Assembly (NCBI GenBank): GCA_040905475.1
Contig: JBBDRM010000071.1
Coordinates: forward strand, 1 to 35,576
Source of the DNA: Actinomycetota bacterium
GTDB lineage: Bacteria; Actinomycetota; AC-67
Length of the DNA stretch: 35,576 nucleotides
Direction of reading: 5' to 3'
The position numbers and the translations under genes are program-made. The notes under the pieces were generated by a model. The model was given only the letters and a program-made list of their open reading frames with translations, had not been told where the DNA came from and did no database searches. Shown here in pieces: positions 1 through 21,069 of this stretch; within the stretch, counting starts at the first letter, position 1, and every line of letters starts with the position of its first letter.

Positions 1-8
1 GTTTTCGG

Positions 9-344
9 TCACCATTCGATCGATCCGGCTCCATCGACGGGGGCAACCGGGACGGGGCGCGATCCGGGAAGGACGGCTTCCACCGCTCGCACGAACGTCA
101 TCGCCGACCCGCGCACGAGCGCCAGCACGCAACCGGCGAACCCGGCGCCGACAAGGCGAGCGCCTACGCAGCCGTCCTGCGCCCGAGCGACCTCGACCGC
201 GCGGTCGAGGTCGGGCGACGAAACCTCGAAGTCGTCCCGCAGCGACTCGTGCGACGCATCGACGAGCGTTCCCATCAGCTCGAGGTCCTCCTGCTCCATC
301 GCCGCGAGGAACGGCATCATCCGCGCGATCGACTGACGGCTCAC
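9..344 (-). CDS. Stand-alone GHMP-kinase C-terminal domain (galactokinase-like fragment)
   Basis: Encodes about 111 residues that match only the C-terminal domain of galactokinase. They align well with the last ~110 residues of the galactokinase-like gene at 15717-16766, sharing SLRDDFEVSSP and GARLVGAGFAG, the third GHMP motif (a Val replaces the usual Thr in both copies). The N-terminal sugar- and ATP-binding half is absent: the sequence upstream is the unrelated CrtC/AttH-like gene. The GTG at 342-344 overlaps that gene's TGA as GTGA, and a second GTG lies one codon upstream, so translational coupling is plausible. It is the last gene of the 14-kb operon. Catalysis alone is unlikely. It is either a decayed kinase kept as a remnant or a small domain acting with another protein. 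Homology is clear; function is unknown. Confidence 0.6.
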   Translation of the reverse strand: MSRQSIARMMPFLAAMEQEDLELMGTLVDASHESLRDDFEVSSPDLDRAVEVARAQDGCVGARLVGAGFAGCVLALVRGSAMTFVRAVEAVLPGSRPVPVAPVDGAGSIEW

Positions 345-1327
345 CACCGAAGGACGTCGGCCTTCCGAAGCTCGCTCATCGGTAGGATCCATTCGCACAA
401 GCCGAAACCGACTTCGCCCTCCCAACTGTAGCGGGTCATGCAGTCGAGCACCGCGAGATCGGTCGACGTGGTCGAATCGCGGTCGGTTCCCAGGCAGAGC
501 TCGTGGGGGAGCTTGTGCGTGAAGCGAATCACGTTCTCGATCTCGCCGGAGATGTCGGCCGGACCGTCCTGGCCGACGAACGACAGTCGTACGGCGCTCG
601 GATCCACGGCCGCTTCGGAGAGAACCGGCATCGACTTTATCTCGACGAACTGGTATGTGCCGCCGTCGAAGATGAACCCGCGCCGCATCGAATGCTCGCT
701 GGGATCCCAGGTGATGTCGGTCACGTAGAAGAAGCGTCCGCTGGGGAACCACGCTTCGCACCAATCGCTTCCTCGATAGCCCGACAGATCGCGCGGGCCC
801 ATGCTGTGATCCCGGTAACCGGTGCCGTCGAAGTCCATCGCTTGGTCGCCGTACTCGAGGCGGCCGCGAGCCGCGCAGGGTTGATCGTGATGGAGCCGGC
901 CCCAAGACGCGGCGCCGGGGGAGAACACCGGCGCCGTCCCGTCGAACGTGACCTGCATGCGCATCTTGGTAGGCAGCCCGTCGGATATCAGCCGGGCGCG
1001 GCTCTCGTCACGGCTCACCAGGCGGGCTGCCCCGTCGATGTTCACCGTCCACCGCTCGAGGGGAACGTCACAGGTGGCGTGGAGAACGGCGGCTCCGGTC
1101 GAACGATCATCGGGGGGACGGCCGTAGCTCTTGGTCACGAGCAGGTCGCCGTTCGGGAGACAGCAGCCGAAAGTGCTTCGCCAGAGCCGCGGATCGAATG
1201 CCGTAACTCCTTGATGGAGGTAGAAGCCCACACGGCGAGCTGGGTCGTACGCGGTCCACAGATACGTCTCGCTCCACAGCGGCACGTCTTGCGGCTCGTG
1301 CGGGAGGTCTTCGACCGGATCGATCAC
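341..1327 (-). CDS. CrtC/AttH-like (lipocalin-related, DUF7064-type) protein, paralogue 1
   Basis: About 328 residues, a close paralogue of the gene at 2940-3986. Shared blocks include WSETYLW near the N-terminus, the HQG motif followed by a WRST block, YGRP, and GYRDHSMGPRD. The DHSxGxRD block recalls the AttH / hydroxyneurosporene synthase (CrtC) calycin superfamily and actinobacterial DUF7064-type proteins. CrtC hydrates a terminal isoprene double bond, so (de)hydration or binding of an isoprenoid is a reasonable guess given the LIS/LDI genes in this locus, but no catalytic residue can be assigned here. No signal peptide or membrane segment is seen. The GTG start at 1325-1327 overlaps the TGA of the upstream phosphotransferase as GTGA; in-frame sequence further upstream lies inside that gene and has arginine-rich shadow composition. 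Confidence 0.72.
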   Translation of the reverse strand: MIDPVEDLPHEPQDVPLWSETYLWTAYDPARRVGFYLHQGVTAFDPRLWRSTFGCCLPNGDLLVTKSYGRPPDDRSTGAAVLHATCDVPLERWTVNIDGAARLVSRDESRARLISDGLPTKMRMQVTFDGTAPVFSPGAASWGRLHHDQPCAARGRLEYGDQAMDFDGTGYRDHSMGPRDLSGYRGSDWCEAWFPSGRFFYVTDITWDPSEHSMRRGFIFDGGTYQFVEIKSMPVLSEAAVDPSAVRLSFVGQDGPADISGEIENVIRFTHKLPHELCLGTDRDSTTSTDLAVLDCMTRYSWEGEVGFGLCEWILPMSELRKADVLRW

Positions 1328-2937
1328 GACGGTACCGGGGTCAGAACGTCGACGGTCCCGGCCTCGCCGTCGACGCGAGCGATGTCGCCGCTGCGGAGGC
1401 GCTGCGTCCCGTCGCGGGTGTTGATGACGCACGGGATCCCGAGCTCGCGCGCAAGGATCGCGCCGTGACTCATCGGACCGCCGACGTCGATCACGCACGC
1501 CGACACCAGGAAGAACAGCGACGCCCAGCTGGGGTCTGTCGTCCGGCAGACCAGGATGTCCCCGTCCTCCAACTGACCGGGGTCACTTGGATCCACGATC
1601 ACTCTGATGCGACCCTCGACCCGTCCGGGGCTTACGCCGATTGCTTCGATGCGAAGAGCGCGCTGCGCAGCCACGGCGGCGGCGCCGTCGAGCTCGATCG
1701 GTTCCGGTCGTCCCTCCCAGCGTTCGGGAAGCTGGACCTTCAGATAACGCTCTCGCCGACCGCGCCGGAAGGCGATCTCAGACCGGGGGTTGGCCGGGAG
1801 CTCGCCGAGCAGCTCGTCGACGGTCAGATAGAACACGTCCTCGGCATCATCGATTGCGCCGTCGACGACCAGAGACTCGCCGATACGGCGCGCCATGCAT
1901 CGGGCGACGTCGTAACTCTTGAGGAACGTCGACCGGCCTTCCTCTCTCAGCGGGATGTAGATGCGAGCGAGGTGCAGCACGAGCTTGGCACGCAGCCGGC
2001 CGCTCGCACCCAGCGCCCCGAACAGCTCGGCCTCGGCCGCGCGCCGGGCCCCATCGCCTTTCGATGAGACCTCGATGGGGCGGGCCCGGTCTCGGTACGC
2101 CTCGAGCAGGTTCCGAAGTGGCGCGGCATCCTCTCGCCACGACTTGCTCGACAGCTCACCCTCAGCCGGGCCGTGGAATCCGTGTTCGGAGAGGAACCGC
2201 TCCATCGGCCGGGTGCCGTTCGCGACATCCCAAAGATCGGAGATCATCCGCGCCTCGTACACATCGGTTTGCGCGCTAACCACGCGAAGCTCCATGCCCG
2301 GCCTGTCGGCGGCGACGCAAGCGCGGCGCGCCTGCTCGAAGAGCCCCTGCGCGATCATCGACACCACAGTGTGCGGCCGGCATATAACCTGCCAGTAGCG
2401 CTTCGCTTGCCGGAAGACCTCGCGCGCCTCTGCGGCGTCCCGAGTGGAGCGCGGCGCCACAGCATTGCGCCACCATCGGTCGACCTCGTCGCGTAGCTCC
2501 TGCAACCGGCGCTTCGCTCGCCACGCGTTCACGGGCAGCTTCCCGAGCACGATCGGCATCCGGGCGGGGTTGCGGGAGCTCGGGATACCTTTTCGCGACG
2601 TGCCGAAGTACTGCTCCTCGACGGCGTCGCCGGACGAGCCCGGCATCTGATCGCCGATGAAACGCATCATGTCGAGGTTGCCGGCGAAGTGGCCGTAGAA
2701 CATGCCGATGAAGTGGCGGTCGAGGTCTTCGAAGACGCGCACGTCACGGGTCGGGATCGCCCCGATGTCGGCGAACGCGCCGCGGAGACCCAGCTCACAG
2801 GCCTCGAAGAACCAGGTCCATCCGAGGGGCGTCCCGACGCCGGGCATCGCCTCGGCGGCGTTCACCGTCGTCCATGCTGCCCGCGTCGGACCGCCGTCGT
2901 GCGTCGGGTCGGGCCGTCCGTCGTCGTCGATCGACAT
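1324..2937 (-). CDS. PEP-synthase/rifampicin-phosphotransferase-like protein lacking the ATP-grasp domain
   Basis: About 537 residues. The C-terminus carries the mobile swivelling phosphohistidine domain of PEP-utilising enzymes: GGPMSHGAILARELGIPCV, with the predicted phosphoacceptor His at residue 491. The N-terminal and middle part (motif MPGVGTPLGWTWFF near residue 33) resembles the substrate-binding middle domain of rifampicin phosphotransferase and similar PEP-synthase relatives. The ATP-grasp domain that normally precedes these modules is missing, so the protein cannot load its own His from ATP in the canonical way. Phenylphosphate synthase (PpsA/PpsB) is a known precedent for splitting these modules over two proteins. 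The ATG at 2935-2937 lies just after the stop of the upstream CrtC/AttH-like gene, and the 3' end overlaps the second CrtC/AttH-like gene. Acceptor substrate unknown; an alcohol is possible. Confidence 0.78.
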   Translation of the reverse strand: MSIDDDGRPDPTHDGGPTRAAWTTVNAAEAMPGVGTPLGWTWFFEACELGLRGAFADIGAIPTRDVRVFEDLDRHFIGMFYGHFAGNLDMMRFIGDQMPGSSGDAVEEQYFGTSRKGIPSSRNPARMPIVLGKLPVNAWRAKRRLQELRDEVDRWWRNAVAPRSTRDAAEAREVFRQAKRYWQVICRPHTVVSMIAQGLFEQARRACVAADRPGMELRVVSAQTDVYEARMISDLWDVANGTRPMERFLSEHGFHGPAEGELSSKSWREDAAPLRNLLEAYRDRARPIEVSSKGDGARRAAEAELFGALGASGRLRAKLVLHLARIYIPLREEGRSTFLKSYDVARCMARRIGESLVVDGAIDDAEDVFYLTVDELLGELPANPRSEIAFRRGRRERYLKVQLPERWEGRPEPIELDGAAAVAAQRALRIEAIGVSPGRVEGRIRVIVDPSDPGQLEDGDILVCRTTDPSWASLFFLVSACVIDVGGPMSHGAILARELGIPCVINTRDGTQRLRSGDIARVDGEAGTVDVLTPVPS

Positions 2938-2939
2938 TG

Positions 2940-3986
2940 CTACCACCGGAAGAGGGGGATCTCGAGGAGCGAAGGGATCGGCGACTTCCCGGGTCGCGAC
3001 ATGGTGATCGGCGTGATCCACTCGCACAGGCCGTATCCGACCTCGCCGTCCCAGGTGTAGCGGGTCGTGCAGTCGATGACCACCAGATCGGTCGGTGTCG
3101 TCGTCGTCCGTTCCGTTCCGAGGCAGAGCTCGGTGCCGGGAAGCTTGTGGGTGAAGTTGAGGGCGCCCTGGATCTCGCCTGGGATGTCGACCGGTCCTGA
3201 ACCGAGGTCGAGCGAGATCATCACGGCCGAGGGATCCGCCGCGGCTGCGGTCAGGCTCGGCATCGACACGATGTCGGCCGGCTGGAACGCGCCGTCGGAC
3301 CACACGAAGCAGTAACGCTTGTCATAGGCGGACGTCTCGAAGAAGATGTCGGCCGCCACGAACGTCTTTCCGTTCGGGAACTCGGCCCAGCAGAAGTCGC
3401 TCCCGACGTACTCGCTGAGGTCACGCGGCCCTCGGCTGTGATCCTTGTAGCCGGGGCCTTCGAAGTCGAACTCCTCTCCGGCGACGTTCAGCCGTCCGCG
3501 CACCCGGCAGTGCTGATTGTGGTGGAGGTTGCCCCAGTGAACCGATCGGTGGTTGAGGAGATCGGTCGTGGCTTCGAAGGTGAGCTCGATCCTCGCGCCC
3601 GACGGCACTCCGTCGGTTGCGAGCCGGGTGCGGTTCTCCTCGCGGGTCACGAGACGGCACGCGCCGTCGAGGCGAAGCGTCCAGCGCTTCAGCGGCTCTT
3701 CCCACGTCATGCCCAGGACTTCGCATCCGGTAGAGCGCGGACGCGCCGGCCGGCCGTAGTGCTTCGCCATGAGCACCCTGCCGTCGGGCAGCGAGCATGC
3801 GATCGTGCTCCGCCACACGGTCGAGTCGAAGAAGGTAGTCCCTTGATGCATGTACACGCCGATCTGGCGGACGGGGTCGAACGCGCACCAGAGGTACGTC
3901 TCGCTCCACATGGGAATCGAACGCGGTTCGGTGGGGAGATCGTCGAGCGGGTCGGTCACGATCTCCCATGAGTTATCGGACGTCAT
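2940..3986 (-). CDS. CrtC/AttH-like (lipocalin-related, DUF7064-type) protein, paralogue 2
   Basis: About 348 residues, paralogous to the gene at 341-1327 (by eye roughly half the residues match across much of the length). Motifs: PMWSETYLWCAFDP, HQGTTFFD, HYGRP, WGNLHHNQHCR and GYKDHSRGPRD. The last resembles the DHSxGxRD block of AttH/CrtC-type calycin proteins. It appears cytosolic, with no signal peptide or TM segment. ATG at 3984-3986 overlaps the LivF stop as ATGA. Together with the phosphotransferase and the other paralogue it forms a tightly overlapping C-B-A trio directly after the importer genes, suggesting these proteins act on the imported compound. The C-terminus is about 20 residues longer than paralogue 1 (it ends LLEIPLFRW). 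The fold call is moderately certain; the reaction is unknown. Confidence 0.75.
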   Translation of the reverse strand: MTSDNSWEIVTDPLDDLPTEPRSIPMWSETYLWCAFDPVRQIGVYMHQGTTFFDSTVWRSTIACSLPDGRVLMAKHYGRPARPRSTGCEVLGMTWEEPLKRWTLRLDGACRLVTREENRTRLATDGVPSGARIELTFEATTDLLNHRSVHWGNLHHNQHCRVRGRLNVAGEEFDFEGPGYKDHSRGPRDLSEYVGSDFCWAEFPNGKTFVAADIFFETSAYDKRYCFVWSDGAFQPADIVSMPSLTAAAADPSAVMISLDLGSGPVDIPGEIQGALNFTHKLPGTELCLGTERTTTTPTDLVVIDCTTRYTWDGEVGYGLCEWITPITMSRPGKSPIPSLLEIPLFRW

Positions 3987-4696
3987 GCCTTCACCCCCAA
4001 GTACAGCTCGGTGATCGCGCCGGCTCCGCCGACGCCGTCGATCGTTCCAGACGCCGCGACGCGGCCGTGCTCGAGCAAGTAGACGCGGTCGACGACTTCG
4101 GCGATGAGATGCGGGCTCTGCTCGACGAGCAGGAGCGCGACGCCGCGCTCGCGGTTGAAGCGCCGGAGACCCGCGAGGAGCTCTTGCGTCATCAGCGGGG
4201 AGAGCCCGTCCGACATCTCGTCGACCATGAGCACGGTCGGGCCGCACATCAGGGCCCGCCCGATCGCGAGCATCTGCTGCTCGCCGCCGGACAGGCTTCC
4301 GGCGCGCTGCCGCAATCGCTCCCCGAGCACCGGGAACAGCGAGAGAACCTCTTCGCGGTTGGCGCCGTTCGCACGGCCGGCCAACGCTGCCGCATCGAGG
4401 TTCTCCGCCACGGTCATCGGTCCGAATACGTGCCGCCCCTCCAGGACGTGCGCCAGCCCGAGACCGACGCGCCGCCAGGGCGGGGAACGCGTGACGTCCA
4501 CGTCCGCGAGGGCAACGGATCCTCTCCAGCATGGGAGCGTCCCCGCGAGCGCGCGGAGGAGCGTCGTCTTGCCAGCGCCGTTGGCTCCCAGGATGCCTAC
4601 GACCTCGGCGCGGCCGACCTCGATCGAGACGTCGGACAGGATCGGCGCATCGACGTAGCCGGTGGTGATGCCCGACGCGCGGAGCGATGCGCTCAT
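3983..4696 (-). CDS. livF: Branched-chain amino acid-type ABC transporter ATP-binding protein (LivF family)
   Basis: A 237-residue ATPase subunit, full length for LivF. Walker A GANGAGKTT near residue 36, signature LSGGEQQM, Walker B VLMVDEMSDGLSP (Met replaces Pro in the usual DEPS box) and H/switch region LLLVEQ are visible. It would form a heterodimer with the LivG protein encoded just upstream and power import through LivH and LivM. In this locus the substrate is probably not an amino acid: LivFGHM-type systems also import aromatic acids, urea and steroid- or terpenoid-like compounds, and here the genes sit between LIS/LDI and CrtC/AttH-like genes. The ATG at 4694-4696 overlaps the LivG stop as ATGA. 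Confidence 0.95.
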   Translation of the reverse strand: MSASLRASGITTGYVDAPILSDVSIEVGRAEVVGILGANGAGKTTLLRALAGTLPCWRGSVALADVDVTRSPPWRRVGLGLAHVLEGRHVFGPMTVAENLDAAALAGRANGANREEVLSLFPVLGERLRQRAGSLSGGEQQMLAIGRALMCGPTVLMVDEMSDGLSPLMTQELLAGLRRFNRERGVALLLVEQSPHLIAEVVDRVYLLEHGRVAASGTIDGVGGAGAITELYLGVKA

Positions 4697-5460
4697 ACCG
4701 GCGACGCTCCCAGATAGACCTCGATAACCACGGGGTCGCGCTGGATCTCTTCCGGCGGGCCTTGCGCGACGATACGTCCGCTCGCAAGGACGTACACCCA
4801 GTCGCAGAGCTCCATCACGAAGCCGACGTTGTGAGCGACGACCAGGATCGTTCGCCCTTCTCCGCGTAGTCCGGCGAGAGTCGTGACGAGTCTGGCCGTC
4901 TCGGCAGGGTCGAGCCCGGTCGTTGGCTCGTCGAGCAGCATGATCGCGGGCGCCAGCGTGAGGACGCCGGCGAGCTCCACGAACCGCGCGATGCCGAACG
5001 AGAGGCCGCGCACGACCTCGTGCCGATGCGCGGCGAGGCCAAAGCGGTCCAGCGTTTCTCCGACGCGTTCTCGGACCCGCCTTTCTTCGCGCGCCCATCT
5101 CCACGGCCGGAGCATCGGGTCGAGGAATCCGTACCCCGTCCTAAGGAACTGACCCGCCATGACGTTCGTCTCGACCGTTTGGTCCATCATCAGGCCGAGG
5201 TTCTGGAAGCTCCGACCAGCGCCCAGCCGTGCTCGCTCGTGCGGCTGCAAGCCGGTGACGTCCCGGCCACGGAGGAACACCCGCCCGCCGTCCAGCGGCT
5301 GCAGGCCCGATACCGCGTTGAAGAGCGTCGACTTGCCCGCCCCGTTCGGCCCGATCAGGCCCACGATCTTGCCTTCCGGCACCGTGAGCGACACGCAGTC
5401 GACGGCGGCCAGGCCGTCGAAGTGGACGGTGACGTCCTCCGTGACCAGGAGATCAGTCAC
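4693..5460 (-). CDS. livG: Branched-chain amino acid-type ABC transporter ATP-binding protein (LivG family)
   Basis: A 255-residue ATPase with Walker A GPNGAGKST, Walker B IMLLDEPTTGLDP and switch His in VVAHNVGFVME. The ABC signature is degenerate: it reads LSFGIARFVELA where LivG proteins usually have LSYGQQR, so the canonical Gln is missing. The second LivG in this window (33144-33929) also deviates (LPYGIQRIAEIA). The long insert after the Q-loop, rich in Arg and containing LRPWRW, is a normal LivG feature. The start is GTG at 5458-5460, overlapping the end of the LivM gene by 8 bases. Partner of the LivF encoded directly downstream. Confidence 0.93.
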   Translation of the reverse strand: MTDLLVTEDVTVHFDGLAAVDCVSLTVPEGKIVGLIGPNGAGKSTLFNAVSGLQPLDGGRVFLRGRDVTGLQPHERARLGAGRSFQNLGLMMDQTVETNVMAGQFLRTGYGFLDPMLRPWRWAREERRVRERVGETLDRFGLAAHRHEVVRGLSFGIARFVELAGVLTLAPAIMLLDEPTTGLDPAETARLVTTLAGLRGEGRTILVVAHNVGFVMELCDWVYVLASGRIVAQGPPEEIQRDPVVIEVYLGASPV

Positions 5461-6901
5461 GCGAGCTCCCTGTGCCGGTGGCCGGACGGCGGACGGGGGC
5501 GTCGCGGGTTTCCAGCGCCTCGGCTACGGCGGCGCCGATACGGTCCGCCATACGAACCTCGGCGCGCGCGATCGCATCCCGGAGCACAAAGCAGACGCCG
5601 ACGATGATGAGCGCGAGACCACCGAGAGCGCCGGAGATCAGATGCTGGATCTGGATCCATACCTGGTCGGTGTTACCCGAGTAGTACCACCCGAGCCCGA
5701 TGGCCACCGCGCCTTCGCCGATGAGCAACGCCCCGATCACGAGCGAGACGGAGAGCTTTCCCTGCCCGCGTGGACGGCCTTGCTCCTCGGTACCTGATCC
5801 GTCTCCGGACGCCGCCTGCTCGCCGCCGGAAAGAACTCGGAGCTTTCGCATCATCTGCCTCCCTACGCCGTTGAGTCCGGCCGGGTGTCTCGTGAGCATG
5901 AACAGCAGACCGATCGGTCCTCCGTATGCGACCGCCGGCCCGAGATCGGATACGAGATACGGAAGCCCTTGGAGCAAAGCGGCGGCAACGAGGACGCCGC
6001 CGACCGAGCCAGCTCCCGCGAGCACGACGGCAACCAGATAGTCGAACCCGAGCGTGAGCGGAAACGTCTGCGCGACGACGAGCGAGAGCCAGATCGACGT
6101 CAGTCCTCCGGCAAGGCCGGCGAGCGCTCCCGCGATCGCGTACGCGCCGATGCGGTATCGGTCGACCGGCACACCGAACGCGGCCGCCGCATCTCGATTG
6201 GTGCGGATCCATAGGAACGACCGCGCGACCTTCGAACGATGGAGCGCGCGCATCGCCAGCACCGTGAACGTGAAGAGGATCGCGAGCACGGGATAGAGGG
6301 AGCGACTGTCGTCGAAGGCGATCGGACCCAGCGTTGCGTCGCTCACGCGGACGCTGCCGTCGCCCACGATCCACGGGCGCGTGAAGAAGAACCGATCGAT
6401 TGCGATCCCGCTCGCGAGCGTGACGATCGCCACGTAGAGGCCGCGCGCACGGAAGGCCGGAAGCGCGATAACGGCACCCGAGAGCGCGCCAACCGCGATC
6501 GCGACGGGGATAAGGACGATCGGCGAGATGCGACCGTGGAAGCTGATCTGCGCCAGAACGAACGCGGGGAGCCCGACGATCCCCGCGTGTCCGAGCGACA
6601 GCTCTCCCGTCCAGTTCACCAGCACGTGGAGCCCCATTGCCGCGATCGCGAAGATCAGAACGAGGCCGAGCTTGAACACGGACGACTCCGACATCATGGG
6701 AGGCATGAGCACAAGAGCCGCGGCTCCGGCGACGTACACGATGGGCCGAAAGGCCTCGGTGGCAGCGGCGGTACCGAGCGGCGTCCGCCAGACCGGAACG
6801 GCCGCCGTGCTCGAGCCTCGGAGCAACGCCGGCTTCCACAAAGCGGCTCCGCCGAGCGCGAGGAGGGCGACGGCGACGGTGACCCCGAATAGGGCTGCCA
6901 T
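5453..6901 (-). CDS. livM: LivM-family permease fused to a C-terminal two-TM domain
   Basis: 482 residues, about 100 longer than a usual LivM. Residues 1-350 are a LivM-type permease with the hallmark GELSLGHAGIVGLPAF near residue 99, RARGLYVAIVTLA near 151, and the cytoplasmic coupling region around IRTNRDAAAAFGV. Residues 351-380 form a polar Gly/Glu-rich linker. Residues 381-482 add two further hydrophobic segments and a charged tail. That tail domain is homologous to the stand-alone protein at 29562-29987: both show a G-W, then D-V, QI, SG and the identical hexapeptide GGLALI in the same order and spacing. ATG at 6899-6901 overlaps the LivH stop as TGATG. The fusion suggests the small domain is an accessory transporter subunit. 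Confidence 0.92.
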   Translation of the reverse strand: MAALFGVTVAVALLALGGAALWKPALLRGSSTAAVPVWRTPLGTAAATEAFRPIVYVAGAAALVLMPPMMSESSVFKLGLVLIFAIAAMGLHVLVNWTGELSLGHAGIVGLPAFVLAQISFHGRISPIVLIPVAIAVGALSGAVIALPAFRARGLYVAIVTLASGIAIDRFFFTRPWIVGDGSVRVSDATLGPIAFDDSRSLYPVLAILFTFTVLAMRALHRSKVARSFLWIRTNRDAAAAFGVPVDRYRIGAYAIAGALAGLAGGLTSIWLSLVVAQTFPLTLGFDYLVAVVLAGAGSVGGVLVAAALLQGLPYLVSDLGPAVAYGGPIGLLFMLTRHPAGLNGVGRQMMRKLRVLSGGEQAASGDGSGTEEQGRPRGQGKLSVSLVIGALLIGEGAVAIGLGWYYSGNTDQVWIQIQHLISGALGGLALIIVGVCFVLRDAIARAEVRMADRIGAAVAEALETRDAPVRRPATGTGSSRD

Positions 6902-7758
6902 CAGTACTCCGTCCGCAACAGTCCAGTGGGGCGAACGAGCAACACGACCATGATGAGACCGGCGATCGTCAACTCGGTGAGACCGGGGGTGCTGACCGTG
7001 TAGCCGAGGACGCCCTCTGAGACGCCGAGCAGCACGCCGGCGCCGAAGGCGCCGTGTATATTCGTCAGTCCGCCGAGGAGAGCAGCCGCGAGTCCGCGGA
7101 CGAGCAGCGCGGTCATGAAGAACACGTGGAAGACGACGAGCGAGGAGACCAGGATCGCTGAGATCCCGGAGAGGGCCCCGGCGAGCGCCCACGAGGCAAT
7201 CGACACGGCGTTCGTATTGATTCCGATCTGACCCGCCGCGTACGGGTCGATGGCCGTCGCTCGCATCCGGACCCCGAACGACGTGCGGTTGTAGAGCAAG
7301 GTCAGCCCCAGCAAGACGACGATCGCCGTGAGCACGATCAAGAGCTGGGTCGGCTTGATCGTGAGCCCAAGAAGGTGCGGCCCCTCACCGCCGACGATGG
7401 GATCGATGAACCGGGGTTGGACGCCGTAGCGGCGGCTCGCGAAGACGAGCAGCAAGCCGGCGAGCCCGAACGTCGCGACCAGGAGCGTCACCCGCGGCTG
7501 ATCGCGAAGAGGACGAACGACGAGCCACTCGGTCACTGCCCCCAGCCCGACCGACACCGCGACCCCCACGACGAGCGCAAGTGCAAGCGGATGCCCGTTG
7601 TCGAACCACAGCTCTGAGAACACGAACGCGCCGAGCATGCCGATCTCGCCGTGCGCGAAGTTCACCACCCGAGTCGATCGATAGACGACGACCAAGCCGA
7701 CGGCGAAGATCCCGTAGATCATGCCGACGAACGCCCCGTTCAGGATCGCCGTCGACAT
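6901..7758 (-). CDS. livH: Branched-chain amino acid-type ABC transporter permease (LivH family)
   Basis: A 285-residue inner-membrane permease with the LivH hallmarks GMIYGIFAVGLVVVYRSTRV and NFAHGEIGMLGAF near the N-terminus, FGVRMRATAIDPYAAGQIGI in the coupling loop, and ALLGGLTNIHGAFGAGVLLG near the C-terminus. Normal length, about eight hydrophobic segments. ATG at 7756-7758, 8 bases after the stop of the substrate-binding protein gene. Pairs with the downstream LivM to form the channel of importer 1. Confidence 0.94.
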   Translation of the reverse strand: MSTAILNGAFVGMIYGIFAVGLVVVYRSTRVVNFAHGEIGMLGAFVFSELWFDNGHPLALALVVGVAVSVGLGAVTEWLVVRPLRDQPRVTLLVATFGLAGLLLVFASRRYGVQPRFIDPIVGGEGPHLLGLTIKPTQLLIVLTAIVVLLGLTLLYNRTSFGVRMRATAIDPYAAGQIGINTNAVSIASWALAGALSGISAILVSSLVVFHVFFMTALLVRGLAAALLGGLTNIHGAFGAGVLLGVSEGVLGYTVSTPGLTELTIAGLIMVVLLVRPTGLLRTEY

Positions 7759-7766
7759 CGCGGCTC

Positions 7767-9143
7767 CTAGAACTGCTCGGCCGGCGGGCCGAGGCTCTGC
7801 CAGGTCCAGTCCGAAGTCCGGCAGCAGATCACCGGGAACACGGCGTTCGTTCCGTAGTTACGGCCGGGCGCCCAGGTGAGCGTCGGGAAGGCACCGGTCG
7901 CGAAGTTCTTGGTGGACTCGATCCCTTTGATCATCGTCCCTCTCGTCGGATGGGCGCCGGCGGCGAGGAGGACGCGTTCGAGGACGAGACCGTTCGCGTA
8001 GAAGAGGAATCGCTCCGCCGGCAGCGGACCGCCCTTGCCGTACTGCTCCGCCTTGGCGTTGAAGGCAGCGAACGACGGTGTGTCGACGGCAGCGTACGGC
8101 CGTACCCAGTACGCGCCGGCGGCCAAGTCGCGCGCGACGCTGGAGACGATGTCGAGGGTCAGGCCGTACATCGACGCCCACTGCGGCTCGAAGTTGATCG
8201 CTTGCGCGTCTCGCAGGATCCCGACCGCTTCGAGGATCGCCGACAGGGCGACGACCTTCACCTGAGCATTCTTCAGGCGGAGTAGCTGCGGGGTGAACGA
8301 CTGGGCGTTCGGTTCGGCGCTCTCCACCACGCAACAGTTCATCCCGTCGGCTTTCGCGCGAGCGATGAAGGCCTTCGCGGCTTCCTCGAGCGCGGCGGTG
8401 TCGTGGATGTAGAGGACGCCCATCTTCTCGCCGCCGTCGCCCTGTTTACGGATCAGACTGGGCAGCGACGTCGCTCCTTGATCCCAGCTCGTCGCGCTTT
8501 CATACGAGTTGCGCCAGCCGCCACTGATCGCCCGCAGTCCGCCCGAATACACGGTCGGGAATCCGGCCTTGTCGAGGCAGTCGATCGACGTGTAGTAGGT
8601 GCTGCCCGAGCTGATCGCCAAGAAAGACCCGTTCGATTGCACGGTTTTACACGCCGCGATCCCGCCCTCCGGGCTGTTCTCATTCGAAACCTTCTTCACG
8701 ATCACCTTGCGGCCGTGGATGCCTCCACGCTGGTTGACGTCTTCGACCCACGTCTCCATCCCGCGATAGGCGACGTTGGTCGGCGGGCCGTACACGCCGC
8801 TGAACGAGCCGATGATGCTGACCGTGATCGTCGTCGCGGTTACGCCGACGCTGGAGTTGCTCCCGGTACCACCTCCGCCGCCGATCCCTTGGTCGCCGCC
8901 TCCGCTCGTGCCGCCGGTGCCGCCCGTTCCGCCCGGCCCTTGCGTCCCGCCCGCGATGAGGCTTCCTGGTGTCGGTGTCCCGCCGGTCGGCCCGCCGGGG
9001 ATCCCGGTGCCCGGCCCAAGGTTGTTCCCTCCCTGTTGAGCGCTCAGCGTGAAACCGTTCCTCGGCGTCTCCACCGCGCAGCCGGTGACGACGGCCAGGG
9101 AAACGACGAGCGCGAAGGTCAACCTCTTCCGCGCCACGCCCAT
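7767..9143 (-). CDS. Substrate-binding lipoprotein of importer 1 (periplasmic-binding type I fold)
   Basis: 458 residues. The N-terminus MGVARKRLTFALVVSLAVV followed by TGC is a lipoprotein signal peptide with lipobox VTGC, so the mature protein is anchored through Cys. Next comes an unusual linker of about 60 residues made almost only of Gly, Thr, Pro and Ser, presumably a flexible tether. The ligand-binding domain starts near TATTITVSIIGSFSGVYGPP and has the Leu/Ile/Val-BP-type block WVEDVNQRGGIHGRKV. Several Cys residues (AACKTV, IDCLDK, MNCC, VICC) may form disulphides outside the membrane. ATG at 9141-9143 overlaps the upstream TGA by one base (TGATG). It should deliver the ligand to the LivH/LivM pair downstream. 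Ligand unknown. Confidence 0.92.
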   Translation of the reverse strand: MGVARKRLTFALVVSLAVVTGCAVETPRNGFTLSAQQGGNNLGPGTGIPGGPTGGTPTPGSLIAGGTQGPGGTGGTGGTSGGGDQGIGGGGGTGSNSSVGVTATTITVSIIGSFSGVYGPPTNVAYRGMETWVEDVNQRGGIHGRKVIVKKVSNENSPEGGIAACKTVQSNGSFLAISSGSTYYTSIDCLDKAGFPTVYSGGLRAISGGWRNSYESATSWDQGATSLPSLIRKQGDGGEKMGVLYIHDTAALEEAAKAFIARAKADGMNCCVVESAEPNAQSFTPQLLRLKNAQVKVVALSAILEAVGILRDAQAINFEPQWASMYGLTLDIVSSVARDLAAGAYWVRPYAAVDTPSFAAFNAKAEQYGKGGPLPAERFLFYANGLVLERVLLAAGAHPTRGTMIKGIESTKNFATGAFPTLTWAPGRNYGTNAVFPVICCRTSDWTWQSLGPPAEQF

Positions 9144-10540
9144 CAGCTCACCGCTCCGAGGCGCGACATCGCGCGATTCCATCGGATCCAGCCGATGAGC
9201 CAGGCGACGAGCAGCGCAACGGGGATCAGCGGAGCCCACAGACGGGGCGACAGACCACCGATCGGAGAAGTGATGGTGGTGATCCCGGATGGCGCGGCGA
9301 TGGCGCCGGGCGGGACCGGCACCGGGCCGGACGTCGGCCCGACGAAAGAGGGGATCTCTGGAGAGAACGGTGCTCCGGGCACGAACGGCGTCCCGGGGAC
9401 CGTTGTGGCGGGTGGGCCGGCGCTCGGGGTGCTTGGTCCGTCGCCGACCGGGAGCTCGGCCGCCGCACACAGGAGAACGCCGGTCGCCTCGAGGAACACT
9501 GTCGGCTCGACGGGGACCGGGAAGGGCAGGAGCGGGCCGAGCTGCCCGGCCGCAGGCAGCGTGTCACACGCGCCGACGACCGCGGGGTCGAGGAGCGGTC
9601 GGAACGGCTCGACCGCGGGGACGAGGACCGAGACCGAGCCGGCCGCGTCCTCGATCAGCGGCACGAATGGTTGAGCGGCCACGGTTACGAAAACCAACGC
9701 GGGGCTTACCGGGCTCGAACCCCCCCCGAGGCCGCACGCGGCCGAGAGCGCGGGCTCGACGAACGGGCTCGTCGCGATCGGCAGCGTGACGAACACGCTC
9801 GCCGTCTGGACGAACACGAAGACGGTGCACGCCGGCTCGAAGGCAGGCTGCAGCACGCCGGCCAACGGCTCAAGAGCGAAGCCCGTTCCTGCCATGACAT
9901 CCGCGTACTGGGTGAGCAACGGGGCAAGCTGATCCGTCGGCGGCGCGGGCGGGGGCGGCACGCCGGCGCATGCCGAGTCGAGTGGAGCGAATACGCCGCC
10001 GAATGCGTACCCGTACGGGAGCAGCCCGATGAGCAGCGGCGCCTGCGCGTTGGCTTCGCACATCACCGACAAGGTGGGGCCGAACGAGGAGTAGAGCTGC
10101 TCGAGCGAGTCGGCTCGTTCCCTGATCGCGGCGTCGAGCGTGTTAGTGACTACCGCGATCTCGCCGGCAACCGTGTCGCCGCCCGTCGCCAGGAGATCCA
10201 ATCCCGGCCCTGCGGCTGCGATCGCCGACCCGGCCGAAACGCGGAACGTCGCGAGGGCCTCCGCCGCTTGGGCGATCACCGGGGCCAGACTCTCCGACTG
10301 CGATCCGGCCGTAAGCACGGCCTGCACGAGCGCGTCGTTGAGCGTCGCGATCGCCTCGCCAACCTGCGCGGCGGCGGGTGCGAGCGGCTGCAAGGCGCCG
10401 TGGATCTGCTCGAACAGCACGCCCGCGGGCCCCGACGGTGGTTCCTCGGCGAGCGCGTCGACCGGTGCGAGCGCGATAAGGGCGAGGAGAACGAGGAGGG
10501 CGACACTCGCCCTCGCGCGGGGACCGCGAGCGTCCCTCAG
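9143..10540 (-). CDS. Secreted, C-terminally membrane-anchored protein with Pro/Cys-containing degenerate repeats
   Basis: No recognised family. No ATG, GTG or TTG gives a complete protein: the first (GTG at 10420) falls after a good signal peptide. Reading from a CTG at 10538-10540, which overlaps the TGA of the dehydrogenase gene as CTGA, gives 465 residues beginning with an Arg-rich segment, a hydrophobic core ASVALLVLLALIALAPV and an Ala-x-Ala site before EEPPSG. The body has degenerate repeats in which a PLxxPA-like segment precedes Cys (FAPLDSAC, LQPAFEPAC, FVEPALSAAC, FRPLLDPAVVGAC). A Pro-rich stalk precedes the C-terminal TM segment APLIPVALLVAWLIGWI and a short basic tail. Expected topology: extracytoplasmic, tethered next to the substrate-binding protein. 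The architecture resembles the protein at 29984-31246, but sequence homology is not obvious. Confidence 0.72.
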   Translation of the reverse strand: MRDARGPRARASVALLVLLALIALAPVDALAEEPPSGPAGVLFEQIHGALQPLAPAAAQVGEAIATLNDALVQAVLTAGSQSESLAPVIAQAAEALATFRVSAGSAIAAAGPGLDLLATGGDTVAGEIAVVTNTLDAAIRERADSLEQLYSSFGPTLSVMCEANAQAPLLIGLLPYGYAFGGVFAPLDSACAGVPPPPAPPTDQLAPLLTQYADVMAGTGFALEPLAGVLQPAFEPACTVFVFVQTASVFVTLPIATSPFVEPALSAACGLGGGSSPVSPALVFVTVAAQPFVPLIEDAAGSVSVLVPAVEPFRPLLDPAVVGACDTLPAAGQLGPLLPFPVPVEPTVFLEATGVLLCAAAELPVGDGPSTPSAGPPATTVPGTPFVPGAPFSPEIPSFVGPTSGPVPVPPGAIAAPSGITTITSPIGGLSPRLWAPLIPVALLVAWLIGWIRWNRAMSRLGAVS

Positions 10541-11577
10541 GGCTTGAGCACCACCTTCGTTGCCTCCTTGGCGTCGAACATCTCGTATGCCTTCGCGGCG
10601 TCCTCCAACGGCATCGTGTGCGACACCAGCCGCCCAGGCGTGAGGCGACCCGCCTCGATTAGTCGCATCAGCTCCGGCCGGTACGCGAACGGGTTCCCGA
10701 TCACGGCCGAGATCGACAGGCCGCGCAAGAACGTCTCGCCGGCGCTCACGGGAAACTCCTCGTCCACCAGCACGCCGAGAAGGACGATCCGTCCCCCGAC
10801 GCGAGGCAGCGCGAACGCGGTCTGCAGCGACGGCTCCGAACCGACCGCCTCGATCACGAGATCCGCACCTTGGTTGTTCGTCGAGTCGAACACCGCGTCG
10901 AGGGGATCGCCCTCACGCACGTCGATTGGGATCGCGCCGAGCTCGGCGGCTTGCTTCAGCCTCTCCTCGACGAGATCGATCGCGAACACCTTCGCCGCCC
11001 CGAGCAGCGGCGCGCAGGCGATCGCGAGCTGACCGAGCGGCCCGGCACCCACGACGGCCACCGACTCACCCGGCCGCAGCGCCCCAGCCTTCAACCCGCT
11101 GTAGGCCGTGGAGAGGATGTCGCTCACGAAGAGCACGTCCTCGTCGCTGAGTCCATCGGGGATCGGCGCGAGCGTCATCTCGGCCATCGGGACGCGCACG
11201 TACTCGGCCTGCCCGCCGGGAAGATCGCCGGCCATCGGGCCCATCCCGAACATCATGAATGCCGGACATCCGCGGTGGTTCCCGCTCAAGCAAGACGCGC
11301 ACCGCCCGCACGCCGTGTACATCGCGGCGACACACCGAGCGCCGACCTCGATCTCGCGCACCGCATCGCCAACGTCCTCGACGACGCCGACGAACTCGTG
11401 ACCCACGATCATCCCCGGCTCCGCTCCCGGCGCCTTGTCGTGGTAGATGTGGAGGTCGGTCCCACAGATCGCCGACGTCGTGACGCGCAGGATCGCGTCG
11501 GTCGGCTCCTCGATCGTTGGTTTCGGGGCGTCGTCGACCCGGAAGTCTCTCTCGCCGATGAAGTGAACCGCGCGCAT
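10537..11577 (-). CDS. Zinc-dependent medium-chain alcohol dehydrogenase
   Basis: 346 residues, normal length for the MDR family. Catalytic zinc ligands are C38 (SAICGTD), H60 and E61 (GHEFVG). The structural zinc cluster is C90, C93, C96 and C104 (CGRCASCLSGNHRGC). The Rossmann motif VGAGPLGQLA and an Asp after the second strand (FAIDLVEE) suggest NAD preference. In context it could oxidise the primary allylic alcohol produced by a LIS/LDI isomerase, the role played by geraniol dehydrogenase GeoA in monoterpene-degrading Castellaniella; that assignment is inference. ATG at 11575-11577 with a GAGGG-type ribosome site upstream. The 3' end overlaps the secreted-protein gene by 4 bases. Confidence 0.92.
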   Translation of the reverse strand: MRAVHFIGERDFRVDDAPKPTIEEPTDAILRVTTSAICGTDLHIYHDKAPGAEPGMIVGHEFVGVVEDVGDAVREIEVGARCVAAMYTACGRCASCLSGNHRGCPAFMMFGMGPMAGDLPGGQAEYVRVPMAEMTLAPIPDGLSDEDVLFVSDILSTAYSGLKAGALRPGESVAVVGAGPLGQLAIACAPLLGAAKVFAIDLVEERLKQAAELGAIPIDVREGDPLDAVFDSTNNQGADLVIEAVGSEPSLQTAFALPRVGGRIVLLGVLVDEEFPVSAGETFLRGLSISAVIGNPFAYRPELMRLIEAGRLTPGRLVSHTMPLEDAAKAYEMFDAKEATKVVLKP

Positions 11578-11600
11578 CGCTGATTACCCTCCTCGCTTGT

Positions 11601-12020
11601 CTAGACGTTGATCAGATCCTGCCGTCCGTCGTTCGCAAGGATCTTCTCGTAGCGCGCCCGAAGCGGTTTCGCGAGCGGCATGAGCTTCAGCATCTTCGGG
11701 ACCGAGCCCTTGACCCGAACCTTCCCGCGGGCCATCGCCGCGGTCATGTTGAGCTTGCCGAGCCAGAACCTGTGTCCGTCATCGGCGGACATCTTCAGCT
11801 CCATGTTGGGCTTGAAGTCGGCGGGGAGCTGCGCGGCACCGAGGAAGAGGCCACCCTCGTCGAACACGACGCCGATCGTCGAGTCCGGATCGGTGTATTC
11901 GATCCGGACGATCAGGCCCGACCCCTTGGTCTTCTCGGCCAGTTCCGGATCCTCCATCGCAACCTTGAAGATCTGCGCAAGGTACTTGTAGACCTCTTGC
12001 TCGTTCTTGAAGAGCGCCAT
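11601..12020 (-). CDS. SCP2-like sterol/lipid carrier domain protein
   Basis: 139 residues consisting of a single SCP2-type fold. Visible features are the charged N-terminal helix, strands IVRIEYTDPDSTIGVVFD, and the typical C-terminal block in which a small-residue stretch (MTAAMARGKVRVKGSVPKML) follows the WLGKLN segment. SCP2 domains bind hydrophobic ligands such as sterols, fatty acyl-CoA or isoprenoids in a tunnel. No signal peptide, so it is cytosolic. It lies between the LIS/LDI gene and the alcohol dehydrogenase, with gaps of 33 and 23 bases, consistent with ferrying a water-insoluble intermediate between membrane and enzyme. Confidence 0.82.
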   Translation of the reverse strand: MALFKNEQEVYKYLAQIFKVAMEDPELAEKTKGSGLIVRIEYTDPDSTIGVVFDEGGLFLGAAQLPADFKPNMELKMSADDGHRFWLGKLNMTAAMARGKVRVKGSVPKMLKLMPLAKPLRARYEKILANDGRQDLINV

Positions 12021-12053
12021 CGCGAACTCCTTCTCTGCGTCGATCCGTCCCGT

Positions 12054-13979
12054 TCAGTTCATCGGGGTGAGCCGGACCTCCTTCCGACCATCGAGGTCGA
12101 TCCGGATCGCGGCGCGCCCTTCCGCGTCGGCCGTCACACGATCCTCGACGCCGCCCACAACCGCGTAGGTTTTGGAGGGAGCGAGCCGCTCGAACAGCAG
12201 CGGCTGCCGGCCCGCGCCGTCGCCCGGCCGCAGCACCAAATCGATCGACGAACCGTCGGTGACGGCCATGGCTACGAGCACCTGCGGGTAGGGAGCGTCC
12301 GCTAGCACCGGCCCCCGTGCGATGACTTCGGGGGTGCCGTAGTTGATGAGGTCGTGCCACGCCCGGCGCCCGCCGAAGCGGCCCGGCGAGAGCATCACGT
12401 TGGCCGCGTTCGAGCCGGGATAGCGAAGCGCTCCACCCTCGACCGACGCGGCCGGCCCTTGCACGTCGAGCGACCGCTGCAGCCCGTCGGCCATCTCGTC
12501 GTCGCCCATCTCGCGGGCGGCGGCGATCCCGAACGCGTAGACCAGATATCCGATCGAGGGCTTGTAGTTCCCGACGTCGAGCCGGTCGGCAGGGCTTAGG
12601 AACTTCATAACCGCCAGACCGTCGCGATCCAGGGTGAAGGCGTTGTCGCGCGCCAGGACCCAGTTCCGCACCGCGATGTCGTTGACCAGCGGGCTCAGCC
12701 AGAACGTGAACCCGGCGATGTTCGTCGTCGAGTTCGTGATCCCCGGCACCGTGATACCGATCCGAGACGAACGCGTGGACAAGGGCCGGCCGTCGACTGT
12801 GGAGAACTCGACGCGCGCGGCGTGGTCGAACGCGTCCCGCACATCTTCGGCGTACCCAGTCCCGTGGAGCCGGTCGTGAGCGATGAGGCCGCCCATCGCG
12901 ATCATGTTGCACAGCGGGTACACCCAGTTGGGCTCGCATGGGAACATGCAGTACGTCGACTGCGAGAAGTTGTGGTGCACGGCCTTCGCCACCGCGGGAT
13001 GGTCGTACGCGAAGGTCTTCTTGTCGTTCCACCGGAAGGGAAGGCAGGCGGCCTGATCGTATCGGTGGTCACCGTTGGTCGTCTCGTACGCGGCGATCTG
13101 CAAGCCGTAATAACCCGAAAGCATGATGTTGTCGCGCGCCATCGGGTCGACGTCGGTGGAGAAGTTCCCCCACAGGTTCTCCCACTTCCAGTACTGCCAG
13201 ACCCTGCGATCGCTCATCTTCTCGATCAGACGGCGCTGCGCTTCTGCCACGTAGCCGGTGAAGGCGGGAGTCCGGGTGTACTGGCCGAGGGCGAGGCCCC
13301 AGCCGCCGTAGTTCAGCTGATAGCGAACCGCGGCCTCGCGGAACTGGTCCACCCACTCGAAACCGTCGAACCGATCGACCGGCTGGAGCGCCAGGTTCAA
13401 CAGATAGCGGTGGTGAGCCAGATCGACCTCCGAATGTTCCAGGATCTCCCGCGACGTCGGCCCGGTCGGCGGCCGGTACTCGATCGTCGCGAGTTTGGTG
13501 TTGAGCACGTCGGCGCGCCGTTGGGAGCGACGGAACGAGGCACGCTGGGTGACGAAGCTCAGAAGGATCACGGCACCGAGACCGGCCGGAAGACCGATGT
13601 CGACGCCCGTCCAGACGGTGCTCGGCGTGCGGATCGCAGCGAGGACGGCTGCCGCCCACCAGACGAGGAACGGGGCGAACATCATGCCGATGATGAACCA
13701 CGCGACGAACGCCACGATGAACACCACAAAGGCAACGGCGAAGAACGTCGGGTCAGACGAGTACAGGAACCCCCCGCCCGGGAAGAGCAGGCCGTGCGCC
13801 AGCGCATGCAGCCGGGGCGACTCGGTCGCGAGGAGGAGCGCGATCGCAGTGATCATCGGGACGCCGAAGATGACGAACGTCCGGCGCGCGAGCCTGGCGG
13901 TGACGGGCCCCATCGGTCGGGCGCGGGGCGGGAGAGCGAGCGTCCGCGGTCGTTCCGTGGCAACGGCAGTGGTTCCCAT
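12054..13979 (-). CDS. Membrane-anchored linalool isomerase / linalool dehydratase-isomerase family protein 1
   Basis: 641 residues. Residues 34-145 contain about four hydrophobic segments. Residues ~190-560 match the linalool dehydratase-isomerase (LDI) alpha/alpha-barrel: VRYQLNYGGWGLALG, DPMARDNIMLSGYYGLQIA, and CEPNWVYPLC followed by HDRLHGTGY. The pair C348/C357 corresponds to the LDI active-site cysteines (171 and 180, from memory); the LDI active-site His in the NIM-x-x-G-H block is Tyr290 here. Length and N-terminal membrane anchor resemble linalool isomerase of Thauera linaloolentis (about 640 residues, from memory). A further ~80-residue beta-rich C-terminus ends RIDLDGRKEVRLTPMN. 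The ATG at 13977-13979 is preceded by AAAGGGGG at good spacing; upstream in-frame ATGs would place coding sequence over the operator. First gene of the 14-kb operon. Likely isomerises or (de)hydrates an isoprenoid alcohol; substrate unproven. Confidence 0.85.
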   Translation of the reverse strand: MGTTAVATERPRTLALPPRARPMGPVTARLARRTFVIFGVPMITAIALLLATESPRLHALAHGLLFPGGGFLYSSDPTFFAVAFVVFIVAFVAWFIIGMMFAPFLVWWAAAVLAAIRTPSTVWTGVDIGLPAGLGAVILLSFVTQRASFRRSQRRADVLNTKLATIEYRPPTGPTSREILEHSEVDLAHHRYLLNLALQPVDRFDGFEWVDQFREAAVRYQLNYGGWGLALGQYTRTPAFTGYVAEAQRRLIEKMSDRRVWQYWKWENLWGNFSTDVDPMARDNIMLSGYYGLQIAAYETTNGDHRYDQAACLPFRWNDKKTFAYDHPAVAKAVHHNFSQSTYCMFPCEPNWVYPLCNMIAMGGLIAHDRLHGTGYAEDVRDAFDHAARVEFSTVDGRPLSTRSSRIGITVPGITNSTTNIAGFTFWLSPLVNDIAVRNWVLARDNAFTLDRDGLAVMKFLSPADRLDVGNYKPSIGYLVYAFGIAAAREMGDDEMADGLQRSLDVQGPAASVEGGALRYPGSNAANVMLSPGRFGGRRAWHDLINYGTPEVIARGPVLADAPYPQVLVAMAVTDGSSIDLVLRPGDGAGRQPLLFERLAPSKTYAVVGGVEDRVTADAEGRAAIRIDLDGRKEVRLTPMN

Positions 13980-14023
13980 AGCCCGCCCCCTTTGGGTCGC
14001 ATGAACCGATATCCCGGCCCGCG

Positions 14024-14048
14024 ACATGTTACAAATCTTGATACATGT
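14024..14048. promoter_or_regulatory. Putative TetR operator (25-bp imperfect palindrome)
   Basis: Left arm ACATGTTACAA (14024-14034), 3-bp centre, right arm TTGATACATGT (14038-14048). Nine of eleven arm positions are complementary. It lies between the divergent LIS/LDI-1 and TetR genes, overlaps the -35 box of the TetR promoter and sits just downstream of the -10 box of the operon promoter, so one bound repressor could silence both directions. The arms and position are visible; binding by the adjacent TetR is inferred. Confidence 0.65.
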
Positions 14049-14066
14049 ACTAGATTGAGTTAAAAT
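14038..14066 (+). promoter_or_regulatory. Sigma70-type promoter for the TetR gene
   Basis: TTGATA at 14038-14043, 17-bp spacer, TAAAAT at 14061-14066. Transcription would begin near 14073, about 60 bases before the GTG start of the regulator. The -35 box lies inside the right arm of the palindrome, suggesting autorepression. Confidence 0.6.
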
Positions 14067-14091
14067 AGGCACCGGATAGGGCGAAAGTCAA
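14062..14091 (-). promoter_or_regulatory. Putative promoter of the 14-kb LIS/LDI-transport operon
   Basis: On the minus strand, TTGACT at 14091-14086, an 18-bp spacer and TATTTT at 14067-14062. The -10 box shares the same AT-rich segment as the divergent TetR promoter. The palindrome at 14024-14048 begins about 13 bases downstream, a typical repressor position. Confidence 0.55.
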
Positions 14092-14134
14092 GAGCGGGGC
14101 ATGATGTGCCAAACCGACGAGAGGGAGCGCACGG

Positions 14135-14839: not shown

Positions 14840-14847
14840 GTCGGCTC

Positions 14848-15334: not shown

Positions 15335-15340
15335 TTCGGG

Positions 15341-15634
15341 TCAGACGGGCTCGCGTACCCGCCGATCGACCATCGCCTCGTCGAAAGAGCTCCTGAGGTA
15401 ATCGGGGAGCTCATAAACCGGAGTGGGCACCGCAGGAGCGATGTCGGCGGACGGCTTGCCGCCGAACAATGCTTTCACGGACCGCCCGGTCCATCGGGCC
15501 GCACGAAACACTATTCCAAGGAGGAACGCGCCGATCAGACAGCAGACCATCAACGCAAGATAAGCACGGAGTGATCGCCCCCGTCCAGGACCAAGATTGA
15601 CGCCGCAGGTCCGGGTCTCGTACGAGCAGTGCAT
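15341..15634 (-). CDS. Small hypothetical single-TM protein
   Basis: 97 residues with one clear hydrophobic segment, AYLALMVCCLIGAFLLGIVF, followed by a basic stretch and a soluble C-terminus containing PVYELPDYLRSSFDEAMVDR. No family was recognised. It lies 82 bases downstream of the galactokinase-like gene on the same strand and may be the last gene of that operon. ATG at 15632-15634; a shorter start cannot be excluded. The amino-acid composition is protein-like, not shadow-like. The 3' end converges on the DUF2243-like gene. Confidence 0.5.
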   Translation of the reverse strand: MHCSYETRTCGVNLGPGRGRSLRAYLALMVCCLIGAFLLGIVFRAARWTGRSVKALFGGKPSADIAPAVPTPVYELPDYLRSSFDEAMVDRRVREPV

Positions 15635-15716
15635 TCGAGCTCACGGCGATCCCTTACTACGCGTGGGCCAACCGCGATCCTGCACCGATGACGGTCGGGA
15701 TCCGCCGCGATCCAGG

Positions 15717-21061: not shown

Positions 21062-21069
21062 GCCGGCGC

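Follow-up and report, generated by a model that had tools for sequence, protein, structure and literature searches.

Dehydration of an alcohol at the expense of ATP, by a kinase and a phosphate-eliminating lyase, has so far been established solely for cholesterol side chains under anaerobic conditions. There, 25-HSK makes 25-phosphosteroids, and the 25-phosphosteroid lyase 25-PSL removes the phosphate to give an alkene (PMC7411048; PMC8449060; PMC11061730). In Sterolibacterium denitrificans, the surroundings of the kinase gene yielded no candidate for the lyase (PMC8449060). Another chemistry of isoprenoid hydroxyls is that of the linalool isomerase (LIS) of Thauera linaloolentis 47Lol, an inner-membrane protein of 644 aa with four transmembrane (TM) helices; it is the sole characterised enzyme of its group, with linalool and geraniol as substrates (PMC4791888). 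In this study, we analysed an operon that carries relatives of both systems. It runs from position 13979 down to position 9 on the minus strand of contig C71, which was covered in its entirety (35,576 bp, hereafter the window) and is part of a 4.24-Mb actinobacterial metagenome-assembled genome (MAG), of the phylum to which Nocardia carnea and Gordonia also belong. Gene calls and Pfam give, in order of transcription, the LIS-family gene LdiA, an SCP2-like carrier, an alcohol dehydrogenase (ADH), a 465-aa protein, a substrate-binding protein (SBP), LivH, LivM, LivG and LivF, the trio DUFa, PEPu and DUFb, and a last open frame at 9-320. We suggest, with slightly better than even confidence, that the operon provides uptake and an entry pathway for an alcohol with an isoprenoid skeleton, either a terpenoid or a sterol side chain, and that the trio is an ATP-driven dehydratase. 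The observations behind this are the gene content and order, the domain homologies, the pairing and fusion of DUF7065 with kinases, the link between PEPu and ATP-grasp proteins, and the homology to 25-PSL.

The two proteins flanking PEPu carry much of the argument. In Pfam, DUFa (2940-3959, minus strand; PF23212, E=5e-8) and DUFb (341-1327, minus strand; 53% identical to DUFa) receive only the names of domains of unknown function, DUF7065 and DUF7064 in the case of DUFa, and no mention of either domain was found in the literature searched. The initial annotation had described both as CrtC/AttH-like. The Pfam model of CrtC, PF07143, matches neither protein; a distant relationship is nonetheless borne out by hhalign (probability 96%, E=2e-9; controls below 0.3%). 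In profile searches of the PDB the best match is 25-PSL, at E=7e-54, and at E=1e-9 when the profile is built from dikinase-associated members alone; AttH (2ich, E=0.007) comes next in the latter search. The motifs RD(H/R)SxG(V/P)R and GYG..E are common to proteins of the DUF7064/7065 type and 25-PSL. A Foldseek search with a model of DUFa ranks three 25-phosphosteroid lyase entries first, ahead of kievitone hydratase and CrtC-like pericyclases, a fold match that we accept because the sequence profiles agree. The trio is thus comparable to the kinase and lyase of S. denitrificans (PDB 9fzn, 9g2i and the product-bound 9g4c; PMC8449060; PMC7411048): by these profiles the lyase family is the same, and the logic, a kinase and a lyase that together dehydrate an isoprenoid tertiary alcohol at the cost of ATP, would be alike. 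The differences lie in the kinase, a 43-kDa phosphotransferase-type protein in S. denitrificans and a PEP-utilising dikinase related to PEP synthase here, and in the genetic setting, where two lyase paralogues flank PEPu within an operon that also encodes LIS and an importer. The chemistry accordingly has a precedent in 25-HSK and 25-PSL acting on cholesterol, whereas the dikinase version and the link to LIS appear to be new; neither these nor the spread of the dikinase version were found in the literature searched. As for the earlier suggestion that the locus adds, moves or removes water at isoprenoid double bonds, this idea is supported, yet the trio resembles a kinase with phosphate-eliminating lyases related to 25-PSL, and not a pair of hydratases with a kinase.

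From these relationships we infer each catalytic step, the class of substrate and the joint work of the two operons of the window. The importer would take up the isoprenoid alcohol, and LdiA, at the membrane, would shift its allylic hydroxyl by a 1,3-transposition or remove it, in the manner of linalool isomerase. The resulting primary alcohol would be oxidised by ADH. An ATP-grasp protein, for which the PPDK-like product of 26623-28542 (PPDKlike) is the likeliest candidate, would use ATP to charge the swivel His of PEPu. PEPu would then phosphorylate a hydroxyl not open to direct dehydration, and DUFa and DUFb would eliminate the phosphate to leave an alkene. The acid could be taken onward by the CoA ligase, the thiolase-like protein and the enoyl-CoA hydratases encoded beside LdiB, the second LIS-family paralogue of the window.

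The association of DUF7065 with kinases extends well beyond this locus. Among 28 PEPu genes elsewhere, 16 directly adjoin DUF7065 (p=3e-10 in comparison with genes farther off in the same stretches), and full-length PEPu lies beside DUF7065 on plasmids and chromosomes of, among others, Diaphorobacter HDW4B, M. avium (pP7a), M. branderi, Nocardia carnea and Antrihabitans. These neighbourhoods show the trio to be a single instance of a module that recurs. In a sample of DUF7065 genes of the phylum drawn without regard to kinases, APH- or PEP-type kinases account for 9 of 65 immediate neighbours and 1 of 233 non-neighbours (p=6e-6), and four additional DUF7065 domains are fused to ecdysteroid-kinase-like (EcK) domains. 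The small-molecule kinases that adjoin DUF7065 or share a chain with it thus belong to two unrelated folds, which fits an action on the phosphorylated product. Proteins of about 650 aa with the order EcK/APH-DUF7065-DUF7064 are seen at L220 5549-7534, L238 4807-6798, L243 4966-6915 and L244 4984-6969 (three of the four examined with Pfam); they are likely one-chain kinase-lyase enzymes. Finely balanced, in our view, is the broader proposal that the DUF7064/7065 proteins are phosphate-eliminating lyases, a large family that has gone unrecognised, and that with exchangeable kinases they provide Actinomycetota and Proteobacteria with a general ATP-driven dehydration of terpenoid and steroid alcohols, the present operon holding a dikinase version coupled to a linalool isomerase. 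The kinases proposed to be exchangeable are of the APH/ecdysteroid-kinase type, one-chain RPH-like dikinases and split PEP/PPDK dikinases. If true, the same chemistry, served by kinases of interchangeable type, would operate in numerous actinobacteria and proteobacteria, far more widely than is known; two domains of unknown function would gain a function, PEP-synthase-like "PEP-utilising enzymes", several of them on catabolic plasmids, would gain a class of substrates, and linalool-isomerase-type enzymes would fit into a wider scheme of moving and removing isoprenoid hydroxyls.

Between the two CrtC-like proteins, PEPu (1324-2937, minus strand) is a relative of dikinases of the PEP-synthase and RPH type, as the initial annotation had recognised, with PF00391 as its sole Pfam domain (E=2e-22). 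Its start is the ATG at 2937, 2 bp past the DUFa stop, and the extra N-terminus that this adds is common to its homologues. The swivel His is His467 of the GGPMSH motif (numbering of the 1324-2865 frame), and the C-terminal 294 aa match rifampin phosphotransferase at E=6e-28. PEPu thus consists of an acceptor-binding part and a swivel part and lacks an ATP-grasp domain, so that a canonical rifampin phosphotransferase is excluded. PEPu needs an ATP-grasp partner, which lies outside the stretch 9-13979 considered in the initial annotation. PPDKlike (26623-28542, plus strand; PF01326 and PF00391) has an ATP-grasp domain and a swivel and lacks the pyruvate/PEP-binding barrel; it aligns with residues 23-564 of maize PPDK at E=1e-131. 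It is paired with unk196 (26033-26623, plus strand), a small winged-helix-type protein with a weak PF25212 match, in the second operon of the window. In other genomes PEPu homologues often adjoin unk196 and a C-terminally truncated PPDK; a PPDKlike homologue stands beside PEPu in Nocardia carnea, Diaphorobacter, M. avium and M. branderi, and ATP-grasp is fused to PEPu homologues on plasmids of Rhodococcus ZPP and R. koreensis, in M. pinniadriaticum and in Nocardioides. On these grounds PPDKlike is most likely the phosphoryl donor of PEPu. The nearest described dikinases are HpeHI, CreHI and PpsAB (PMC12167813) together with rifampin phosphotransferase, which share with PEPu and its relatives the acceptor-binding and swivel-His chain and an ATP-grasp that is either on another chain or fused. 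However, the two-component systems have a separate, ATP-grasp-only subunit of the PEP-synthase type, whereas the candidate donor here is PPDK-type with a swivel His of its own; PEPu is smaller (57 kDa against 71 kDa for HpeH); and the motif T/SxxGGxxxH reads IDVGGPMSH in PEPu, with Ile for T/S, although the N. carnea homologue keeps the Thr. Because of these differences, PEPu is best called HpeHI-like in its predicted mode of action and is not a member of the HpeHI/CreHI/PpsAB group.

Several points weigh against the pathway proposed above. PEPu and PPDKlike belong to separate operons on opposite strands, 23.7 kb apart, and both carry a swivel His, PPDKlike having in addition an ATP-grasp of the PPDK type; in the known two-component dikinases the donor is ATP-grasp-only and of the PEP-synthase type (PMC12167813). 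Two further PPDK_N proteins are encoded in the genome, on contigs C88 and C159, and other donors are possible. Single-sequence searches with DUFa and DUFb return nothing for 25-PSL at E<=1, and a three-sequence profile around the proteins of the window reaches it at E=0.009; because this match is weak, we regard DUFa and DUFb as distant members of the 25-PSL group by sequence. The model of DUFa, made from eight sequences, is of low confidence (pLDDT 52, TM about 0.3), and a two-sequence model (pLDDT 41) was set aside as too poor. In favour of a link, full-length PEPu and LIS coincide in 4 of 397 genomes of the phylum, against 5 with PEPu and 6 with LIS (p=7e-8, or 4e-6 without the present genome), but these values take no account of kinship or genome size. 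Outside that sample full-length PEPu is present in 6 of 50 LIS genomes and missing in 44, T. linaloolentis included, and PEPu is for this reason an add-on and not a core partner of LIS. The chemistry of the CrtC relatives, finally, is varied and includes hydratases and pericyclases. It is conceivable, if somewhat unlikely, that the trio has the reverse function or another one of the CrtC type, with DUFa and DUFb as hydratases or lipocalin-like lipid carriers, and that PEPu phosphorylates the substrate so as to trap it or to prepare it for carboxylation, as in the Hpe and phenylphosphate pathways: CrtC, kievitone hydratase and AttH are among their relatives, the products of HpeHI, CreHI and PpsAB are carboxylated or oxidised and not dehydrated (PMC12167813), and LIS lies near PPDK and biotin-carboxylase-type genes in two gammaproteobacterial MAGs. 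Yet profile and fold searches of the PDB both put 25-PSL first, and the tie of DUF7065 to kinases of two unrelated folds fits an action on the phosphorylated product. In the two MAGs just mentioned (L124 1772-9943 and L125 6975-15098), LIS stands between a pair of APH kinase and DUF7065-like genes and a truncated PPDK, which the biotin-carboxylase-type genes follow.

The membrane step of the proposed dehydration pathway would fall to LdiA (12054-13979, minus strand; PF18566, E=1e-84; LDI in the PDB, E=1e-12). As the initial annotation had supposed, it belongs to the linalool isomerase/dehydratase family, and its architecture is that of LIS: four N-terminal hydrophobic segments, predicted TM helices spanning residues 34-143, an Ldi domain (219-524) and a C-terminal beta domain. 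It shares with the T. linaloolentis enzyme (PMC4791888) the four N-terminal helices, the cytosolic Ldi domain, the Cys pair and nearly the length (641 against 644 aa), with 37% identity (locus L088); the operon context differs, and the present genome has four paralogues. With LDI of Castellaniella defragrans it has in common the Ldi domain, the CEPx6C cysteines and an equivalent of Tyr66; LDI, however, is periplasmic with a signal peptide. The Cys pair, C348/C357 in LdiA and C171/C180 in LDI, is kept in 87 of 87 family members, that of T. linaloolentis included. His129 of LDI serves to tell LDI from LIS. Its column holds Tyr290 in LdiA, Trp in LIS and His in none of the other members of the 87-protein set; together with the N-terminal membrane anchor, this excludes LdiA as an LDI of the Castellaniella type. 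LdiA is thus LIS-type, with a predicted 3,1-shift of the hydroxyl between linalool and geraniol. The substrate may instead be a sterol or steroid side chain, with LdiA and the trio handling a C24-C26 alcohol, which we consider possible but doubtful. The window does encode an SCP2 carrier, and, next to LdiB (16753-18684, minus strand; PF18566, E=1e-94), a CoA ligase, the thiolase-like protein TLP1 and enoyl-CoA hydratases (19544-22539 and 18748-19512); the characterised relative of the lyases is a steroid enzyme, and a Sterolibacteriaceae MAG has LIS, a 25-PSL-like gene and an APH kinase. Against a sterol stand the linalool and geraniol used by the one characterised LIS-group enzyme (PMC4791888), the Liv type of the importer and a window without ring-degradation genes. 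In that Sterolibacteriaceae MAG (L086 9869-15001) the three genes lie together, the 25-PSL-like one matching 25-PSL at E=1.5e-24, a hint that sterol side chains may be among the substrates of the LIS family.

LIS-family genes are rare, occurring in 6 of the 397 phylum genomes, and their neighbourhoods vary. Among 80 named LIS loci, obtained by a profile search of genome contigs with a LIS alignment, none has SBP, LivH/M, SCP2, a PEPu-type trio or galactokinase nearby, and a conserved LIS-importer-SCP2 operon is excluded; the conserved order of LIS and trio that the initial annotation proposed to look for is likewise not found. A pair of DUF7065-type and APH-kinase genes does occur within 10 kb in 5 of the 80; where the host is a gammaproteobacterial MAG, the pair faces LIS directly. 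Conservation extends to the modules of the operon but not to the operon in its entirety.

Within the window, the block nevertheless has the marks of a single transcription unit, in keeping with what had been described. Gene calls, Pfam and reading of the junctions (starts corrected by eye) place all 13 calls on one strand with distances of at most 33 bp or else overlaps of 1-8 bp. The call at 9-320, however, is not a full gene: it encodes no more than the C-terminal ~100 residues (one third) of a galactokinase (GHMP kinase). This remnant has 62% identity to residues 203-305 of the intact galactokinase-like paralogue at 15717-16640 (minus strand), which represents the type from which it derives, and it begins 20 bp past DUFb. 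The only promoter-like site on the operon strand in 16.7 kb has its -35 element at 14091, in the 155-bp gap (13980-14134) before a divergent TetR-family gene (14135-14839, plus strand; PF00440, E=6e-11), and terminator-like sites are no more frequent than expected by chance (8 against 6.4 +/- 2.1). Between LdiA and the TetR gene lies an operator-like 11-nt inverted repeat, ACATGTTACAA-N3-TTGATACATGT, at 14024-14048, and we propose that the operon is controlled by TetR. It would take an improbable course of events for the importer, the LIS block and the trio to be a chance mosaic, joined by segment duplication and insertion without joint function, the trio having entered a galactokinase gene. 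The remnant directly after DUFb, a diverged colinear SCP2-ADH copy without LdiA on contig C72 and the lack of the same operon in any relative among the 80 LIS loci agree with such a history; the tight translational coupling through the block, its single promoter region, and the association of LIS and kinase-DUF7065 modules in other phyla and across genomes do not.

Contig C72 (L037) probably adjoins the window, since window positions 1-55 are the exact reverse complement of its first 55 bases and this 55-mer, found nowhere else in the genome, has at both starts the signature of an assembly-graph link. Together they would form a region of about 71 kb in which four LIS paralogues are accompanied by several Liv-type importers, C72 contributing two more paralogues, further importers of this type and further PEP-utilising proteins. 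The colinear duplication covers window 10537-15709 and L037 114-4301, with a galactokinase tail, a DUF2243-like gene and SCP2-ADH (81% nucleotide identity); in the C72 copy a GH127 gene is inserted and TetR-LdiA is missing. The SCP2 sterol/lipid carrier-like protein (11601-12020, minus strand; PF02036, E=3e-9) and the Zn-dependent ADH (10537-11577, minus strand; PF08240/PF00107) are 85% and 89% identical to their C72 copies.

The importer is complete, as had been stated: an SBP lipoprotein (7767-9143; PF13458, E=4e-30), LivH-type (6901-7758; PF02653, E=3e-34) and LivM-type (5453-6901; PF02653, E=7e-30) permeases, the latter with an additional C-terminal TM segment, and LivG-type (4693-5460; PF00005, PF12399) and LivF-type (3983-4696; PF00005) ATPases, all on the minus strand. 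The SBP scores 29.9 bits with the LivK/J model, the curated cut-off of which is 477. In this genome each of the four LIS paralogues lies by Liv-type importers; a general link of this kind is excluded by its absence in relatives. The least probable of the explanations considered is that importer and LIS serve glycosides or prenylated nucleosides, such as terpenyl arabinosides or cytokinin ribosides, with nearby sugar and nucleoside enzymes processing the polar part. It would account for the constant company of Liv-type importers, for the GH127, PfkB, three nucleoside hydrolases and adenosine deaminase of C72, for the galactokinase-like genes of the window and for the sugar-type ABC importer adjoining LIS in N. 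carnea. The operon itself, though, has neither a glycosidase nor a nucleoside hydrolase, and such enzymes were not seen near LIS at the 80 other loci, where nucleoside enzymes were not systematically searched. The two LIS paralogues of C72 (L037 9508-14740 and L038 1778-8328) lie amid the nucleoside hydrolases, the deaminase and enzymes of the FAA-hydrolase/enolase families, next to Liv-type importers.

The 465-aa protein (9143-10540, minus strand) has a signal peptide and a C-terminal TM segment (start and segment assigned by eye) and no match in family searches. The signal peptide directly follows a candidate CTG codon that overlaps the ADH stop (cTGA, 10538-10540), most likely the start. 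Each of the two Liv-type importers in the window comes with secreted or TM proteins of no assigned family, namely this one and a pair of 141 and 420 aa at 29562-31246, and the 141-aa TM protein is similar by eye to the C-terminal extension of LivM.

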